From an uncultured Pseudorhodobacter sp. (GTDB taxonomy: Bacteria; Pseudomonadota; Alphaproteobacteria; Rhodobacterales; Rhodobacteraceae): DNA of 64,000 nt. The translations under genes were made by a program, and so were the position numbers. The stretch lies in the NCBI GenBank assembly GCA_913062925.1, contig CAJXWJ010000003.1, forward strand, positions 1 through 64,000. Direction: 5' to 3'. Below, in pieces: positions 20,287-27,698 of this stretch; the stretch's first letter is position 1, and each line of letters begins with the position of its first letter. The notes below the pieces were generated by a model. The model did not search any database. It was given only the letters and a program-made list of their open reading frames with translations, and had not been told where the DNA came from.

Positions 20287-21681
20287 TTATTTGATGATGG
20301 TCTCGGGGCCCATCATCAGCGTGGGCAGCCATGTCGACAGGATCGGGATATAGGTCACCATGATCAGGAACACGAAAAGGATGCCAAGGAAGGGCAAGGC
20401 AGCCTTAACCACCCGCATGATCGACATCCCCGCCACGCCCGATGTGACAAAAAGGTTCAGACCCACCGGCGGCGTGATCATGCCGATCTCCATATTGACC
20501 ACCATGATGATGCCCAGATGGATCGGATCGACGCCAAGGCTGATCGCAATCGGGAACACAATCGGCGCAACGATGACGATCAGGCCCGAAGGCTCCATGA
20601 ACTGGCCACCGATCAGCAGAATCACATTCACCACGATCAGGAAGGTGATCTTGTCCAAACCAGCCGAGAGCATGGCATTGGCCACCGCCTGCGGCACTTG
20701 TTGATCGGTCAGCACTTGCTTGAGAATCAGCGCATTGGCGATGATGAACATCAGCGTGATGGTCAGCTTGCCCGCGTCATAAAGCATGCGCACCGTGTCG
20801 GGGTGGTAGAGGCTGGTCAGCAGAGCTTGCGGATGACGCAACAGGCTTTTGCGCGCGCCGCCGTCTTGCCCCGCCAGCGGCCCGATATCGCGGTAGATAA
20901 AGCTTGCCACGATAAAGGCATAGACCGAGGCCACTGCCGCCGCTTCGGTCGGGGTAAAGATCGCACCTGTGATGCCAGGAATGCCGTAGATGCCGACCAT
21001 GATGATCACCACCAGCAAAAGCCCCCAGAAGGCATCGCGGAACGAGGCCCAAACCTCGCCCCAGCCCATCCACTCGCCCTTGGGCAGCTTTTTGACCACG
21101 GCGATGATATAGATCGCCGCCATCAGCATAAAGCCCGCGATCAGGCCGGGGATAACCCCCGCCAAGAACATCCGGCCGACCGAAACATCGGTGGCGCTGG
21201 CATAAACCACCATGACGATCGAGGGCGGGATCAGAATGCCCAAGGTGCCAGCGTTACAGATCACGCCGGCGGCAAAGTCCTTGGTATAGCCCATTTTGCG
21301 CATCGCCGCGATCACGATGGACCCAATCGCAACCACGGTGGCCGGCGACGACCCCGACAGTGCGGCAAACATCATACACGCCAAGACCCCCGCAATCGCC
21401 AAACCGCCGGGCAAATGCCCGACCACGGCAATCGAAAACCGGATGATCCGCGCCGCAACTCCGCCTGTGGACATAAAGCTGGAGGCCAGAATGAAAAACG
21501 GGATCGCCAGCAGCGTGTAATGCCCAGCCATACTGCTGTAAAACGTCTGCGCAATCGAGGCGAGCGAGGTATCGCTGAAAAACAGCAAGAACAGCACCGA
21601 CGACAAACCCAGCGCCACCGCAATCGGAACACCGATCATCAGCAGCAGGATAATGCCTAGAAATAAGACCAAAACATGCAT
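20287..21681 (-). CDS. dctM: TRAP transporter large permease subunit (DctM type)
   Basis: A 464-residue membrane protein with about 12 hydrophobic segments. It begins HVLVLFLGIILLLMIGVPIAVALG, the usual DctM start, and contains the conserved GSSPATVVAIGSIVIAAMRKMGY and AGTLGILIPPSIVMVVYA segments. It forms the Na+-coupled translocation channel with DctQ. It is 3 nt from the end of dctQ, the last gene of dctPQM. There is an internal hydrophilic insertion (about residues 265-295, DGGARKSLLRHPQALL). Substrate is unknown; C4-dicarboxylate or another organic acid is likely. Confidence 0.93.
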   Translation of the reverse strand: MHVLVLFLGIILLLMIGVPIAVALGLSSVLFLLFFSDTSLASIAQTFYSSMAGHYTLLAIPFFILASSFMSTGGVAARIIRFSIAVVGHLPGGLAIAGVLACMMFAALSGSSPATVVAIGSIVIAAMRKMGYTKDFAAGVICNAGTLGILIPPSIVMVVYASATDVSVGRMFLAGVIPGLIAGFMLMAAIYIIAVVKKLPKGEWMGWGEVWASFRDAFWGLLLVVIIMVGIYGIPGITGAIFTPTEAAAVASVYAFIVASFIYRDIGPLAGQDGGARKSLLRHPQALLTSLYHPDTVRMLYDAGKLTITLMFIIANALILKQVLTDQQVPQAVANAMLSAGLDKITFLIVVNVILLIGGQFMEPSGLIVIVAPIVFPIAISLGVDPIHLGIIMVVNMEIGMITPPVGLNLFVTSGVAGMSIMRVVKAALPFLGILFVFLIMVTYIPILSTWLPTLMMGPETIIK

Positions 21682-21684
21682 GGA

Positions 21685-22362
21685 TCAGGACTCTCGGTTA
21701 AGGGCGGCGACGCTTTCGACAGCATCTTCGGCTTCGTGGCTGACGATCAGGCTTTCACGGCTGCCCGCCAAAATTTCACGCGTGGCCTGCACAAGCCGCA
21801 GCAGCAGCAGGCTGATGCCCAGCGGCAGGATGAAATAGGGGATAAAGCGCGGCAGCTTTTCCCACTCTTCGCCCTGATTGATCCAACCTGCCAGAAATTC
21901 CAAAAACCACGGCATCGGGATTTGTTCGGTGATGTAGAACGCGCGGTCGCGGGTCGAGGCGTCAAAGCCTGTCGGGAACCAGCGCCCCGTTGTAACCTGA
22001 AATCCGGCAAAAGGCGCCCAGTAATCCCATGCGCCCTTCAACATCAGCAGCGCATAAAAGATACAGACCGCCGCCGACAGCAAGGCCACAGCGCGCTTGG
22101 GGCCCGCGGGTAAAAAGCTGGTCGCAGCATCGACGCCCAAATGCGCGGTGACGCGAAAGGCATGGCTGACGCCAAAAATCACCAGCCAAGCAAACAGGAT
22201 CAGCGTCGCCTCAAGCCCCCAGATGAAACCCGAGTTGAAGCCATAGCGCAGCACAACGTTGATAAAGGTGATCAGGGTCATCAGGCCTAAAAGCGTGGCA
22301 ATCGCCGTCTGCTCCCAGACATCAATACGGCGCCGCGGGGCGCCTTTGGGGGTGTCGCTCAT
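21685..22362 (-). CDS. dctQ: TRAP transporter small permease subunit (DctQ type)
   Basis: About 225 residues with four hydrophobic segments (ATLLGLMTLITFINVVLRYGF, LEATLILFAWLVIFGVSHAF and two more), longer than the common 160-180 because of a central insertion and a C-terminal tail. DctQ scaffolds DctM and contacts the binding protein. Of two adjacent ATGs (22365, 22362), the second gives better spacing to GAGG. A strong hairpin lies between dctP and this gene. Confidence 0.9.
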   Translation of the reverse strand: MSDTPKGAPRRRIDVWEQTAIATLLGLMTLITFINVVLRYGFNSGFIWGLEATLILFAWLVIFGVSHAFRVTAHLGVDAATSFLPAGPKRAVALLSAAVCIFYALLMLKGAWDYWAPFAGFQVTTGRWFPTGFDASTRDRAFYITEQIPMPWFLEFLAGWINQGEEWEKLPRFIPYFILPLGISLLLLRLVQATREILAGSRESLIVSHEAEDAVESVAALNRES

Positions 22363-22388
22363 CATGCGCCTCGTTCAGGAGTGGGGTG

Positions 22389-22428: not shown

Positions 22429-23433
22429 TTAGTGCTTGGCGTTGATCGCTTGCACGGCGTCGATGTTGTCTTGGCCGACATCGTCCAAGAACTGCGCCCA
22501 AACTGGCTTCATAGCATCGACCCAAGCCTGACGCTGCTCTGGCGACAGTTCACGAATCACAGCACCGGCATCCAAGATCGCCTGACGCGATTTGGCTTCC
22601 AGACCGTTGACGTTGGCGTTGCCCTCGACCGTGACCTCACGCATGATCTGCATGAACTGATCGCGCACCTCTGGGGCAAGGCTGTCAAGGAAATCGACCG
22701 AGCTTACGACCAGATAATCCAGCACGCCGTGGTTGGTTTCGGTGGTGCCGTCCTGAACTTCAAAGAACTTCTGGCCATAGATGTTGGACCAGGTGTTCTC
22801 TTGGCCATCGACAACGCCGGTTTGCAGCGCGCCGTACACTTCCGAGAAAGCCATCGGCTGCGCCGAGGCACCCAGCGCCTGCATCTGAGCGACCAGCACA
22901 TCAGACGGCTGCACGCGCATTTTCAGACCCGAGGCATCAGTTGGCAACAGCATCGGCTTGTTGGCCGAAAACTGCTTCATGCCCGAGTGCCAGAATTCCA
23001 AGCCCGCCAAACCGCGACGCTCCATCGAGGATTTCATCGCCTGACCGGCTTCACCCAGCTGGAATTCGTCAACCGAATCGATGTTCTTGAACATGAAGGG
23101 CAGATCGAACAGGCGGAAGACTTTGGTGAAAGCTTCAAACTTCGACAGCGACGGCGCAGCCAGCTGCACGTCGCCCTGAAGCATGGCTTCCAGAACCTTG
23201 TCGTCATCATAAAGCGTCGAATTCGGGTAAAGCTCCATGCAAAGCTTGCCGTTCATCTCGGTGTTGACGCGGTTGGCCAAAGCCTGCGCGGCCAGACCCT
23301 TTGGGTGCTTATCAAGGTTGGTGGTGAAGGAAAATTTCACCACGGTCTCGCCCGGATCGCATTCAGCAGCCGAAGCAATCGCAGTGGTCGACAAAAGAAA
23401 GGCCGCCGAAACGGCAGCGGTCAAGAATTTCAT
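22429..23433 (-). CDS. dctP: TRAP transporter solute-binding protein (DctP type)
   Basis: A 334-residue periplasmic receptor. The signal peptide is MKFLTAAVSAAFLLSTTAIASA, cleaved before AECD. The mature part carries the DctP-family core: VKFSFTTNLDKHPKGLAAQALANRVN, GLKMRVQPSDVLVAQMQALGASAQPMAFSEVYGALQTGVVDGQENTWSNIY. The conserved Arg of MRVQ normally binds the ligand carboxylate, so an organic acid is expected. The ribosome-binding site GGGAGGAG is strong. Upstream lie tandem DctD-type palindromes. Confidence 0.95.
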   Translation of the reverse strand: MKFLTAAVSAAFLLSTTAIASAAECDPGETVVKFSFTTNLDKHPKGLAAQALANRVNTEMNGKLCMELYPNSTLYDDDKVLEAMLQGDVQLAAPSLSKFEAFTKVFRLFDLPFMFKNIDSVDEFQLGEAGQAMKSSMERRGLAGLEFWHSGMKQFSANKPMLLPTDASGLKMRVQPSDVLVAQMQALGASAQPMAFSEVYGALQTGVVDGQENTWSNIYGQKFFEVQDGTTETNHGVLDYLVVSSVDFLDSLAPEVRDQFMQIMREVTVEGNANVNGLEAKSRQAILDAGAVIRELSPEQRQAWVDAMKPVWAQFLDDVGQDNIDAVQAINAKH

Positions 23434-23625
23434 GTGAACTCCTCCCAGAGTATCGACGCCAGACAGGGTCCAGCATGTGACTTGCGCCCGAAGTTCGGAC
23501 GATGATCAAAGTGTTTAGATCAGGCGATGCTTGGGCAATAGAAAGTTTTTTAACGATCTAATTGGGGATTTTTTCTTTTTTTATCCGCATATTAGGCAAA
23601 TTTCCTCCAACCCGCAGCACAAACA

Positions 23626-23685
23626 CTGTGCGGAAATCCGCACAGCTGTTAGCGCCTAACCGGCGTAAACCCGCACAGACTGTGC
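23626..23685 (-). promoter_or_regulatory. Tandem DctD-like upstream activator sites for dctP
   Basis: Site 1 (23626-23645) is the perfect palindrome CTGTGCGG-AAAT-CCGCACAG. Site 2 keeps one full half-site CCGCACAG (23671-23678) with a degenerate partner; its centre is 33 bp from site 1, about three helical turns. A second small palindrome GTTAG-CGC-CTAAC (23648-23660) lies between. The motif corresponds to the DctD upstream activating sequence as I recall it from Sinorhizobium meliloti dctA, where tandem strong and weak sites are known. No proper -24/-12 sigma-54 promoter was found downstream. Confidence 0.7.
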
Positions 23686-23688
23686 CCG

Positions 23689-24231
23689 TTAGCCAATCGG
23701 CTGGGCAGCAAGTGCTGCGGCAATATCGGCGTCAATCGGCGTGTCAAAGCTTTTCACCAGACAGCCCAGAATCCGATACAAACCGACCGTCGCAATCACA
23801 TCAAACAGCCCATCGACGCCGACCAAATCCACCAGTTCGGCTTGCAGATCGGCGGGCAAACAGGCCGCGTCAATCAGCGCATCCACCGCGCGCACCAAGA
23901 TCGCATCGGCCCCCGAAAGCCGCGCCACATCACCGCGCAGCGACAAGATCCGCGCATCGCTTAAGCCCGAGGCCCGCCCCCGCACCACATGATGCGCCCA
24001 TTCATATTCGGCCTGCAACCGCACGCCGGTGCGCAAGATCACCACTTCGCTGCGCTCGGCGCCAAGGCTGGTTTTGACCACAACATGATCGCGGAAATCC
24101 GCCCAGGCCCGCAGCAGGGCCGGATGATGCGCCATCACCCGATAGACATTCAGCCGCCCCGCAAAGCCGCCGCGCATATCGGCAATCTGGCTTGGCCAAT
24201 CGGCATCGCTTAGCGGCATGAAATCTTGCAT
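23689..24231 (-). CDS. Carboxymuconolactone decarboxylase-family protein
   Basis: A 180-residue all-alpha protein of the CMD/AhpD superfamily. The recognisable core runs from RVMAHHPALLRAWADFRDHVV through LGAERSEVVILRTGVRLQAEYEWAHHVVRGRASGLSD, with the conserved Glu-Trp-x-His of CMD proteins. No CxxC redox pair is present, so a hydroperoxidase role is unlikely. It sits between dctD and dctP, a rare place for such a gene. Its job may relate to the transported substrate. Start 24231 is preferred over 24234 for spacing to AGGAGA. Confidence 0.75.
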   Translation of the reverse strand: MQDFMPLSDADWPSQIADMRGGFAGRLNVYRVMAHHPALLRAWADFRDHVVVKTSLGAERSEVVILRTGVRLQAEYEWAHHVVRGRASGLSDARILSLRGDVARLSGADAILVRAVDALIDAACLPADLQAELVDLVGVDGLFDVIATVGLYRILGCLVKSFDTPIDADIAAALAAQPIG

Positions 24232-24246
24232 CATCGTCTCCTGAAA

Positions 24247-25473
24247 TCAGCTGCGAAACAGCTCTGGCCGCAGCCCGTGCCGCGTCAGCTTGTCATAAAA
24301 GGTCTTGCGCGGCACCTGCAAGGCTTGCGCGGCCAGCGTGGCATTGCCGCCGGCGCGGCGCAGCGCTTCTTCCAGCAAAGACCGCTCGACCCGCGCCAAT
24401 TGCTCGGCCAAACCGGTGCTGGGCTCGGTCTCATCCTCGGTCAGCCCCATGGCAAAGCGCATCGCCTCATTCATCACCGAACGTGCATTGCCGGGCCAAT
24501 CACGCGCCATCAGCCGGGCGATGGTGGCCTCGGAAATCACGGGTTCGGGCAGGGCGGCTTGCTCGCAGGCCTGTGCAACATAGGTGCGAAACAACACGCC
24601 AATATCTTCGGGCCGCTCGCGCAGCGGCGGGATCCGCAGGCGCATGGCGTCAAGCTTATAGAACAGGTCATGCAAAAACCGCCCCGCCTGCGCCTCGGCC
24701 GCCAAATCCTGACAGGTGCCCGCCAAGACCCGCGCGGGGTGGTCGCCTTCCATCAGATCCAACAAGGCAAACTGGCTTGAAGGGCTTAGTCCGCCAACCT
24801 CATTGATAAAAATCGACCCCCCCTCGGCCGTCTCGAAGGCCTGCGCAAGGCTGGCTGGCGTCACCGACCCCGCCGCAAGCCGCTGAAACGGGCGCGCAGC
24901 AGTTGCTGATAGCATATGTATGATCTCGGCAATCTTGGGGATACTGCTGCCAGGCTCACCTGTGATCAGAACTTCGGCGCTGGTGCGAGCAACAACCCGC
25001 ACGCGGTTGCGCAGATCTTCCGAGACCGCCGAGGTGCCATAAATCATCCGCGCCGCCGCATCCGAAGATTGCAATTGCTTGCGCAGCAGCCGGTTTTCCA
25101 GCACCAGCGCGCGGCTGCGCAGCGCCTTTTCCACCACCGCAATCAGATCAGAGGGCGCGCAAGGCTTTTCCAGAAAATCAAACGCTCCCTTACCAACCGA
25201 GCGCACCGCCATCGGAATATCGCCCTGCCCCGAGAGCAAAATCACCGGCAACTCGGCGTCAATCTTTTGCGCATAATCCAGCAGCGCAAAGCCGTCTTTG
25301 CCGGGCATGCTGACATCGCTGACGATAACACCTTGGAATTTATCGCTGATATGATCCTTGGCCTCGATATAGCTGCCCGCCAGAATCGGCTGCAAATCGG
25401 CCAGCTCCAGCGTCTGGCCCAAGGCCTGACGCACGGCGCGGTCGTCATCAACAAGAAGAACGGTACGGATCAT
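24247..25473 (-). CDS. dctD: DctD-like response regulator with degenerate sigma-54 activation domain
   Basis: A 408-residue protein. Receiver domain (1-120): VDDDRA and the phosphoacceptor Asp53 in VIVSDVSMPG, plus Lys in EKPC. AAA+ region (about 145-340): Walker A is reduced to GEPGSSIPK (canonical GETGTGKE), the GAFTGA loop is absent because the stretch RPFQRLAAGSVTPASLAQAFETA bridges directly to Walker B, and Walker B reads SIFINEVGG with Asn for Asp. The Fis-type helix-turn-helix (GGNATLAAQALQVPRKTFYDKLTRHGL) is intact. It is about 40 residues shorter than classical DctD. It cannot be expected to hydrolyse ATP or remodel sigma-54, and probably acts on sigma-70 promoters or as a repressor. 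It overlaps dctB by 4 nt. Confidence 0.85.
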   Translation of the reverse strand: MIRTVLLVDDDRAVRQALGQTLELADLQPILAGSYIEAKDHISDKFQGVIVSDVSMPGKDGFALLDYAQKIDAELPVILLSGQGDIPMAVRSVGKGAFDFLEKPCAPSDLIAVVEKALRSRALVLENRLLRKQLQSSDAAARMIYGTSAVSEDLRNRVRVVARTSAEVLITGEPGSSIPKIAEIIHMLSATAARPFQRLAAGSVTPASLAQAFETAEGGSIFINEVGGLSPSSQFALLDLMEGDHPARVLAGTCQDLAAEAQAGRFLHDLFYKLDAMRLRIPPLRERPEDIGVLFRTYVAQACEQAALPEPVISEATIARLMARDWPGNARSVMNEAMRFAMGLTEDETEPSTGLAEQLARVERSLLEEALRRAGGNATLAAQALQVPRKTFYDKLTRHGLRPELFRS

Positions 25474-27218
25474 GCGGCCTTCTCGCCCGCCGAGGCGGCA
25501 AGTTCAACGCAAAACTCGGCCCCACCGGCCGGAGGGTTACGACCGGTAATGCTGCCGCCAAAGCTTTCGATGATGCCATAGGAAATCGACAAGCCGAGCC
25601 CCATGCCTTCGGCCTGCCCAATGGCTTTGGTGGAATAAAACGGGTCAAACATCCGTTCGGGTTCGGCGATGCCAGGCCCCGTATCGCTTAGAGTCAGACG
25701 CACCCGCCCCTCGGCTTGGCTGATGTGCAGGCGCAACCGCCCGCCCTCTTGTCCCGCCATCGCATCCAGCGCATTGGCGATCAGGTTCAGCACCACCTGC
25801 TGCAAGCGCACCTCGCCGCCGCGCACCATCACCGGCTGGGTGGGCGGGCGGTATTCAAGCGCCACACCATCTTGGCGCATTCGCGGCTGAGTGATTTCCA
25901 GCACAGCCGCAACTGCGGCCACCAGATCGACATCGGAAAAGCCTTCAACCTCTTGACGCGCAAAGGCACGCAGATTGCGGATGATCCGCCCCATCCGCCG
26001 CGCAAGATCCGAGATTTGCAGCAGATTTGCCGCGGCTACCTCTGGTTTGCCGCGCTCGATAAAGGCCGCCCCATTTTCGGCAAACGACCGGATCGCCATC
26101 AGTGGCTGGTTCAGCTCGTGACTAAGGCCCGCTGCCATTTGCCCCAGCGCCGAAAGCTTGCCAGCGCGGATAAGATCGGCTTGCGCCAGTGTCAGCTCTT
26201 TGGTGCGTGCGGCAACCCGCTCTTCCAGCGCAGTATTGGCGCGGGCCTCGACCTCTAGGCGCTGCGCCAAGCTGCGGCGCCGCTCGGAAACCATGAAAAG
26301 CGCCGCGCCAAAGATCAGACACAGCGCCGCAGCCGTCGCCGCCTGCATCAGCGCGGTCTGCAAGGCGGGGGCGGCATCCAGCAAAATCTCTCCCCGCATC
26401 GCAATCACCGGCAAAGGCTGCGTCAAATGCAGCGCCAGTGAGGGCAGATAGGGCCCAGCCTTGATCGCCCAAACCGAATGCTCTGCGATGGTATATTCGC
26501 GCAACGGCGGAAAGGGCTGGATCATTTCGGGCGGCACGGCTGGCAGCACATCGGGAATCAGATGCTGTGCCCGCAGCACCAATTCATCGCGGTTCGAGAC
26601 AAAGATCACCCCTTCGGCATCGGTGAAAAACGCAGATTCCGCCTCGCCTCGGCTTGCGACTTCAACGGTTTCCACATCCAGCCGGATGGTGACAGCGGCG
26701 ACCACCGGCCCCTCTGGCGAGAACACCGGCGCCGCATAGATAAAAATCCGGCGCTGATGGCTAGCATCCAGCATATGCGCCATACCAATGGTGCCATTCA
26801 GCGCACGGCGCAGATAATCAGGAATGCCGTTGTCAGCGGCCACCCCTGCGCGACGGCTGGAAGAGGCCAGAACCCGCCCCTCGCGGCTGACAAGTTCGAT
26901 GCGATCCGATCCCGTGCGATCGGCGGCAGCCAGCAACAGCGCATTGGCCGGTGCCGCCGCCGTAACCGAAGGGGATTTTAGGCCGACCAAAGGCATCAAG
27001 GTTGGATGATCGGCAAAGAACACCGCCAACTCGCGATAGCGCTGTAACTCTCCGGTCAGACGGCCCGAGGCAAGCGACAGATCAGCAGCCCCGCGCTCGC
27101 TCAGACGATCCAGACCATCGCGCAACGAGATCCAAGCCACCAGCGCGGCAAAGCCCATCGCCATGACGAAAAACAGCGTCATGATCGAGGATTGCGCAGT
27201 TTTAGACGAAACGGGCAT
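25470..27218 (-). CDS. dctB: DctB-like sensor histidine kinase
   Basis: A 582-residue membrane kinase. An N-terminal transmembrane helix (IMTLFFVMAMGFAALVAWISL) is followed by a ~260-residue periplasmic double-Cache sensor region (FFADHPTLMPLVGLKSPS, NGTIGMAHMLDASHQRRIFIYAAPVF). A second transmembrane helix (LMQAATAAALCLIFGAALFMV) and a coiled linker come next. The kinase core has the H-box GLSHELNQPLMAIRSFAENG, N-box LQQVVLNLIANALDAM and G-boxes DTGPGIAEPERMFDPFYSTK and GMGLGLSISYGIIE. It pairs with the adjacent DctD-like regulator and probably senses the TRAP substrate. Confidence 0.93.
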   Translation of the reverse strand: MPVSSKTAQSSIMTLFFVMAMGFAALVAWISLRDGLDRLSERGAADLSLASGRLTGELQRYRELAVFFADHPTLMPLVGLKSPSVTAAAPANALLLAAADRTGSDRIELVSREGRVLASSSRRAGVAADNGIPDYLRRALNGTIGMAHMLDASHQRRIFIYAAPVFSPEGPVVAAVTIRLDVETVEVASRGEAESAFFTDAEGVIFVSNRDELVLRAQHLIPDVLPAVPPEMIQPFPPLREYTIAEHSVWAIKAGPYLPSLALHLTQPLPVIAMRGEILLDAAPALQTALMQAATAAALCLIFGAALFMVSERRRSLAQRLEVEARANTALEERVAARTKELTLAQADLIRAGKLSALGQMAAGLSHELNQPLMAIRSFAENGAAFIERGKPEVAAANLLQISDLARRMGRIIRNLRAFARQEVEGFSDVDLVAAVAAVLEITQPRMRQDGVALEYRPPTQPVMVRGGEVRLQQVVLNLIANALDAMAGQEGGRLRLHISQAEGRVRLTLSDTGPGIAEPERMFDPFYSTKAIGQAEGMGLGLSISYGIIESFGGSITGRNPPAGGAEFCVELAASAGEKAA

Positions 27219-27230
27219 CGTGGTCAGCCT

Positions 27231-27623
27231 TTACAGCAAGCCGCGCTCTTCCAGCACTTTGCGCGCAACGCGAAAGCACTCAAGCCCCTGCGGCACGCCG
27301 CAATAGATGCCGATCACATGAATGATGGCGCGAATTTCCTCGACTGAAACGCCGTTGTTCAGCGCGCCTTTGCAGTGGATTTCCCATTCGTGCATCTTGC
27401 CCAGCGCGCCGATCATCGACAGGTTCATCATCGAGCGGGTCTTGGCGTCGATCACCCCATCGCCCCAGCCAAAGCCCCAGCACCAAGCTGTCATGGCTTC
27501 CTGAAACGGGCGGGTGAAATCATCAGCCGCGGCAAGGTTCTTTTCGACATAGTCGGCCCCAAGCGTGGCCTTGCGTTGGTCAAGTCCCAGCACAAACAGA
27601 TCTTCGTCAAATGTCACAGCCAT
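27231..27623 (-). CDS. Carboxymuconolactone decarboxylase-like protein
   Basis: 130 residues, the size of PcaC-type 4-carboxymuconolactone decarboxylases. Motifs: FQEAMTAWCWGFGWGD, KTRSMMNLSMIGALGKMHEWEIHCKGALNNGVSVEEIRAIIHVIGIYCGVPQGLECFRVA, including the conserved Glu-Trp-x-x-His. Start 27623 (MAVTFDEDL) is chosen; the upstream frame is not conserved. It ends 12 nt before dctB on the same strand and so probably leads the dctBD operon. PcaC itself works in protocatechuate breakdown; the substrate here is unproven. Confidence 0.8.
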   Translation of the reverse strand: MAVTFDEDLFVLGLDQRKATLGADYVEKNLAAADDFTRPFQEAMTAWCWGFGWGDGVIDAKTRSMMNLSMIGALGKMHEWEIHCKGALNNGVSVEEIRAIIHVIGIYCGVPQGLECFRVARKVLEERGLL

Positions 27624-27698
27624 GGTGCCTCGTGCAAATTGGGTCAATCTGGGCAGTAGACAGCATTCGCGAAGCCGCAGCAACCAAGCCCAAAACGC

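Follow-up and report, generated by a model that had tools for sequence, protein, structure and literature searches.

A DctD-like regulator beside TRAP transporter genes of Rhodobacteraceae lacks the sigma-54 contact loop and the catalytic Walker A lysine

DctD of S. meliloti drives the symporter DctA from a perfect -24/-12 target promoter, and carries the GAFTGA sigma-54 contact loop, the Walker A motif GETGSGK and the Walker B motif LDE. Other response regulators of the NtrC family have departed from this scheme. HupR of Rhodobacter capsulatus acts with IHF and sigma-70 at hupSL through sites near -150 to -160, and is active when unphosphorylated. It is listed among the NtrC-family response regulators that have lost the interaction with sigma-54 (PMC3162934). 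R. capsulatus NtrC is likewise without GAFTGA and uses sigma-70 in a phosphorylation-dependent manner, ATP binding being reportedly needed (PMC10274813). V. cholerae VpsR combines an NtrC fold lacking GAFTGA with regulation through sigma-70 and does not need ATP, whereas Caulobacter NtrC, which also lacks GAFTGA and acts at sigma-70 promoters, keeps Walker A and Walker B and requires both (PMC10274813). Sigma-70-acting degenerate proteins of the NtrC family are thus already known (R. capsulatus NtrC, HupR and VpsR), and the DctD group analyzed here adds a variant to them. Our literature search returned no description of this group as sigma-54 independent, a result that does not prove that none exists.

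The window is a stretch of 64,000 nucleotides from an uncultured Pseudorhodobacter sp. (assembly GCA_913062925.1, contig CAJXWJ010000003.1, positions 1 to 64,000). For the regulator gene, the coordinates, strand and length given in a preliminary description of this DNA were right, and the locus is arranged as follows:

25470..27218, minus strand: DctB-like membrane sensor histidine kinase (HisKA and HATPase_c), overlapping the regulator start by 4 bases
24247..25473, minus strand: DctD-like response regulator, 408 aa (ORF list, Pfam, alignment, AlphaFold2)
24919..24960, minus strand: degenerate Walker A GEPGSSIPK and the next helix, residues 172-185, with Ile178 for the catalytic Lys and an invariant Lys180
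24796..24810, minus strand: Walker B stretch FINEV, residues 222-226, with Asp changed to Asn (alignment)
22429..23433, minus strand: dctP, TRAP solute-binding protein, the target gene (PF03480, TIGR00787)
21685..22365, minus strand: dctQ, TRAP small permease, target operon (PF04290)
20287..21681, minus strand: dctM, TRAP large permease, target operon (PF06808, TIGR00786)

The regulator is composed of a receiver domain (residues 5-114, with Asp53 at the phospho-acceptor position), a degenerate AAA+ core (residues ~145-284) without L1/GAFTGA, L2 and the Walker A Lys, an AAA lid (residues 285-342) and a Fis HTH (residues 359-398, PF02954). The receiver and the HTH are therefore intact, as the preliminary description had it, and the paired DctB kinase that it took to be normal is so by domain content. 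Two genes of the carboxymuconolactone-decarboxylase family flank the kinase-regulator pair, one of them lying between the regulator and dctP, an arrangement seen only in the window (23689-24234 and 27231-27683) and in its nearest named relative, L043 (5392-5931 and 2018-2416).

The window regulator resembles S. meliloti DctD in family, receiver and Fis HTH, including an almost identical recognition helix (PRKTFYDKLxRHG), yet it adjoins a TRAP system and differs in GAFTGA, both Walker motifs and the target promoter. Its core finds its best Pfam match in PF14532 (Sigma54_activ_2), and the canonical PF00158 matches only piecewise. In the alignment to S. meliloti DctD, a first deletion of ~19-20 residues takes out L1/GAFTGA, and a second, separate deletion of ~12 residues takes out L2 in the stretch from Walker B to sensor I; the GAFTGA region is thus absent as had been claimed, but not as the single block of ~40 residues proposed. 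Walker A, correctly read beforehand as GEPGSSIPK, aligns gap-free, with Ile178 in the place of the catalytic Lys. A shift of GAFTGA or of the catalytic Walker residues to other positions was considered and rejected, none being seen in the alignments.

The extent of these lesions was counted in 113 aligned co-directional TRAP-linked orthologs. GAFTGA is absent from the window regulator and from all 113, and the catalytic Walker A position is occupied by T, I, N, V, S or M and in no case by K, so the survey of TRAP-linked DctDs in Rhodobacteraceae that had been suggested recovered the same losses throughout. The Arg finger (FRxDL, residue 267) is replaced by N, S, H or L in the window regulator and its orthologs. 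By contrast, the Walker B sequence FINE, also read correctly, is peculiar to a few members: it is NE in the window regulator, but D is kept in 108/113, E in 111/113, and N occurs in 4/113. GSS in place of GTG or GSG in Walker A is nearly unique to the window genome. As judged from the alignments, what the whole family shares is the loss of both loops and the replacement of the Walker A Lys and of the Arg finger, and the Walker B change is late and local. Against this background, Asp53 is D in 113/113 orthologs, Lys103 is present in 113/113, and Lys180, two residues past the catalytic Lys position, is invariant (113/113).

The AlphaFold2 model of the regulator is well folded (mean pLDDT 89.9), and its core superposes on FlrC, FleQ and NtrC1 at 1.5-2.2 Å over ~205 residues; comparison of the model with the VpsR structure 7v2b gave a Z score of 25.0 over 341 residues (rmsd 7.6, ~20% identity). 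As modeled, the regulator retains the AAA+ fold but not the motor parts, and ATP hydrolysis appears very unlikely given the loss of the Walker A Lys and the Arg finger. The invariant Gly172, Gly175 and Lys180 suggest, however, that the AAA+ remnant is not idle. Measured against group-1 bEBPs, the regulator lacks GAFTGA, the Walker A Lys, the Walker B DE, the Arg finger and a -24/-12 target. It shares with DctD its position in the tree, a paired kinase with an adjoining dicarboxylate transporter, and a predicted operator before the transporter; with the sigma-70-acting degenerate regulators it shares an NtrC architecture devoid of GAFTGA. On these features, the regulator is best regarded as a DctD by descent that is no longer a sigma-54-dependent activator.

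Orthologs were collected from 198 genomes, one per genus, of the same bacterial family as the window, and 80 named loci were added, ranging from Pseudorhodobacter to Celeribacter, Ruegeria, Octadecabacter and Shimia. An ortholog of the co-directional type, called by E-value, is found in 84/198 family genomes, and the regulator is full-length in about 80/198 sampled genera. Synteny is strong in the 80 named loci (kinase in 79, dctP in 76, dctM in 70), and the order kinase-regulator-dctP-dctQ-dctM is retained in nearly all loci of sufficient length. The dN/dS ratio between the window regulator and its two nearest relatives is ~0.05-0.2 in every domain, pointing to purifying selection on the group. 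Since the loss of GAFTGA and of the Walker A Lys is common to every co-directional ortholog and dN/dS is low, the lesions are not a matter of chance. The Celeribacter loci L057, L065 and L070 have a pair of dctP genes after the regulator, and one ortholog in a nearly closed genome (G009:C3:908070-909293) has an internal TAA, possibly marking a recent pseudogene.

All sampled TRAP-linked regulators of the family form one clade (SH-aLRT 99) nested within DctD diversity, among DctA-linked and TRAP-linked DctDs, and the clade is recovered whether the loop columns are included or excluded. It comprises a second TRAP-linked group, likewise without GAFTGA, with genes oriented divergently to dctPQM (L124-L127, L129, L132, L133 and L135). 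In this divergent subclade the Walker A Lys is mostly kept (Arg in L125 and L132) and Walker B is lost, whereas the subclade of the window has lost the Walker A Lys; in L123, L1 alone is lost, and GATGTGK and LDE are still present. This distribution suggests that L1 was lost first and that the ATPase then decayed by two different routes. Operators of the divergent group, where paired, lie ~41 bp apart as opposed to 33.

The loop lesions of GAFTGA-less DctDs differ from one another: in Paracoccus the lesion amounts to 3 residues, in Sphingomonas parapaucimobilis to 7 and in the TRAP clade to ~19, and L164 has substitutions. For the DctD rows, parsimony counts four changes on the best tree, of which only two are forced by strongly supported branches. 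In Paracoccus, a plasmid-borne, DctA-linked DctD (L144 and L178-L181) has lost GAFTGA by a small deletion; its dctA is preceded by tandem DctD operators 31 bp apart and by no -24/-12 element, and the proteins are annotated as sigma-54 dependent. Separately, GAFPGA, with Thr changed to Pro, is fixed in a clade of DctD relatives (L128, L130, L131, L136, L137, L140, L169 and L170); in L170, the one member whose TRAP target could be examined, no -24/-12 is present there.

Scanning for -24/-12 elements showed no enrichment over shuffled sequences in the 200 bp preceding dctP, whereas the positive control, S. meliloti dctA, scored as perfect, and a sigma-54 promoter at dctP was rejected on this basis. 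In a comparison across Alphaproteobacteria with alignment-anchored transporter starts, GAFTGA and -24/-12 went together. A strong -24/-12 precedes the transporter gene in 12/13 loci with a GAFTGA-bearing DctD, including one that is TRAP-linked (L162), but in 0/8 loci with GAFTGA-less or GAFPGA proteins, though operators are mostly kept, and at only 1/88 target genes of the TRAP clade (Mann-Whitney p 1.8e-4 and 9e-9, uncorrected for kinship). A -24/-12-like match at the TRAP-clade locus L059 (score 14.4) is possibly due to chance.

The dependence on rpoN was addressed by genome comparison, with presence defined as a full Sigma54_DBD profile match. Such a match was obtained in 61/198 family genomes, and the profile search gave no full match in 66 of the 84 that carry the regulator. 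In 18 of these, nearly complete or closed and several of them in 1-10 contigs, Sigma54_CBD is absent as well, a search that detected 6/6 rpoN-positive control genomes. Sigma-54 independence in rpoN-less species is therefore close to proven. The window's own genome does contain rpoN, so sigma-54 independence there is argued from orthology and from its own promoter. Taken together, the alignment, the 87/88 targets without a strong -24/-12 and the 66 genomes without detected rpoN bear out the proposal that the regulator cannot act as a classical DctD. More broadly, rpoN is not recognizable in about two thirds of the sampled genera, most of which still carry several NtrC-family proteins. Among seven NtrC-family proteins examined in the window genome, GAFTGA or GSFTGA occurs only in L001 and L002; NtrC (L006), NtrX (L003), a PgtA/DctD-like protein (L004), a MobR-like protein (L005) and the window regulator are without it, NtrC and NtrX being proteins separate from the window regulator.

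The region upstream of dctP contains the following predicted elements:

23660..23677, minus strand: distal predicted DctD operator TGTGCGGGTTTACGCCGG, 3 mismatches in 12, at -244 from the dctP start and 33 bp from the proximal operator
23627..23644, minus strand: proximal predicted DctD operator TGTGCGGATTTCCGCACA, a perfect palindrome, identical to the S. meliloti dctA site
23569..23594, minus strand: IHF-like site TAATATGCGGATAAAAAAAGAAAAAA, at +50 from the start of the proximal operator
23533..23538, minus strand: candidate -35 TTGCCC of dctP, weak by consensus, placed from the conserved TTTTTCTTGA of orthologs
23510..23515, minus strand: candidate -10 AACACT, weak, with a 17-bp spacer, placed from orthologs

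The predicted operator is a tandem of TGTGCG-N6-CGCACA, identical to the DctD site of S. meliloti dctA, where the tandem arrangement likewise has a 33-bp spacing; this identity is consistent with the almost identical recognition helix. The perfect 18-base pattern has a single match in the 3.15-Mb window genome, upstream of dctP. Tandem operators lie 32-34 bp apart in 81/88 loci and 40-41 bp apart in 6, and the match quality of 82 loci was never attained by shuffled sequences. A scan reported the operator palindrome as terminator-like, a signal that we attribute to its symmetry and regard as artefactual.

Downstream of the operators, unsupervised motif search returned TAA-N5-TGAaAA. This motif agrees with the IHF consensus YAANNNNTTGATW and is phase-locked to the operator at +60 or, a helical turn closer, at +50; 7 loci have a perfect IHF match as compared with 0.3 expected, all in the same orientation. 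A second motif, the -35-like TTTTTCTTGA, lies 54-56 bp past the IHF-like site in 40/87 loci and is matched at >=7/10 positions (that is, at least seven) in 31/87 as compared with ~6 expected. The match to TATAAT peaks at a 17-bp spacer from this motif, and the -10 is weak throughout the loci. The layout of operator, IHF-like site and TTTTTCTTGA thus resembles an activated sigma-70 promoter. A consensus sigma-70 scan of the window called no promoter at dctP and missed the -35/-10 given above, so the promoter call in the window rests on the orthologs.

Physiological data are available from Ruegeria pomeroyi, whose dctMPQ genes SPO2626-2628 mediate the uptake of fumarate, succinate and malate (PMC10130141). 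Judged by gene order, SPO2629/SPO2630 would be the orthologous regulator and kinase pair; SPO2630 has been named both a sensor (PMC4809877) and a regulatory protein (PMC10041152). Growth of the SPO2630 mutant on fumarate and succinate is impaired nearly as much as that of the dctM and dctP mutants, the first percentage column of the published table reading 96.9/81.8 (fumarate/succinate) for SPO2630, 99.1/92.6 for dctM and 96.7/75.2 for dctP (PMC10130141), and a fitness study grouped SPO2630 and another dctD with TRAP genes (PMC10041152). This phenotype supports positive control by the regulatory pair, without singling out the regulator's own role and with polarity as a possible contribution.

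We consider it likely that the protein is a phosphorylation-controlled, ATPase-dead and sigma-54-independent DctD, acting from upstream sites to activate dctPQM with sigma-70 RNA polymerase. The kinase would sense an extracellular ligand and phosphorylate Asp53, as the intact receiver and the mutant data imply. The phosphorylated regulator would then bind the conserved tandem operators via its Fis HTH, ~140 and ~175 bp upstream of the putative start, and IHF, to judge from its motif and helical phasing, probably bends the DNA between operators and promoter. The shape of the promoter and the rpoN-less hosts suggest that the promoter is a weak one at which the bound regulator recruits or stabilizes sigma-70 RNA polymerase. 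Remodeling driven by ATP hydrolysis would be absent, and the AAA+ remnant would serve instead as a folded assembly and contact module. The contact with sigma-70, the binding of DNA and of IHF, activation as opposed to repression, and the role of the AAA+ remnant are what we infer from these features. In a bolder version, which we hold to be unlikely, a P-loop with its Lys moved by two residues (Lys180, with the invariant Gly172 and Gly175 and a nearly invariant Glu225) would bind a nucleotide or second messenger without hydrolysis and gate operator assembly, in an IHF-looped, motorless drive of sigma-70.

Alternative readings were weighed against the same evidence. The regulator could sit on the DctD operators as a repressor or anti-activator, keeping dctPQM off until the kinase releases it. 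Such a protein would tolerate the loss of the activation machinery, and E. coli TyrR represses at some promoters. Repression is also on record for some promoters of Caulobacter NtrC (PMC10274813). Repression is nevertheless improbable: operators at ~-140 and ~-175 that are phase-locked to an IHF-like site have the layout of activation, and the R. pomeroyi regulatory-pair mutant resembles a transporter mutant and not a de-repressed strain. If another factor of the sigma-70 family (for example an RpoH-like one, whose -35 likewise contains CTTG) read dctP and the regulator were its co-activator, the conserved -35-like element, which reads TTTTTCTTGA, and a -10 that is poor by the TATAAT standard would be accounted for; but a 17-bp spacer with a weak -10 is ordinary for activated sigma-70 promoters, and we find this quite improbable.

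Continued service to sigma-54 where rpoN exists, for instance in a mixed hexamer with a GAFTGA-bearing activator, is very improbable. The window genome does keep rpoN and two GAFTGA-bearing activators, yet neither the window nor its relatives show a -24/-12 at dctP, a subunit that has lost the Arg-finger position and the Walker A Lys should poison any mixed ring, and the same protein and promoter layout recur in genomes without rpoN. Decay of the regulator into a pseudogene or relict is scarcely credible. One family copy (G009) has an internal stop and the Walker motifs of the window are worse than those of relatives, but the regulator is full-length in about 80/198 sampled genera, dN/dS is well under 1 in every domain, the receiver, Lys180 and HTH are invariant, and the operators are conserved.

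With sigma-70-dependent activation as the preferred reading, the regulator can be placed among the degenerate members of its family. R. capsulatus NtrC, the parallel offered in the preliminary description, holds for the loss of the loop and for remote tandem sites, but not for the nucleotide, since that protein reportedly needs ATP binding (PMC10274813) and the window regulator lacks the Walker A Lys; it also appears to belong to another orthologous group, that of nitrogen control. HupR serves a hydrogenase regulon, and the likeness to it is drawn from descriptions. VpsR was crystallized as a c-di-GMP binder, according to the title of 7v2b, and controls different genes. On balance, the regulator would seem nearest to VpsR in its ATP-independence and nearest to HupR in promoter layout.

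Collectively, the analysis describes a regulator group that is clade-wide, very probably ATPase-dead, matched by a change of promoter, and present in genomes without detected rpoN. Most members of the family that carry it thus combine a protein that databases label a sigma-54 regulator with a genome where rpoN was not detected, and regulon predictions that rely on the label are wrong. The group offers a natural experiment on the release of a regulatory protein from its sigma factor: lesions of protein and promoter coincide while the DNA sites stay, and the loop lesions differ among the TRAP clade, the DctA-linked proteins of Paracoccus, Sphingomonas and one further family. It also poses the mechanistic question of how an enhancer-binding protein without a motor may activate ordinary RNA polymerase over a distance of more than 100 bp.
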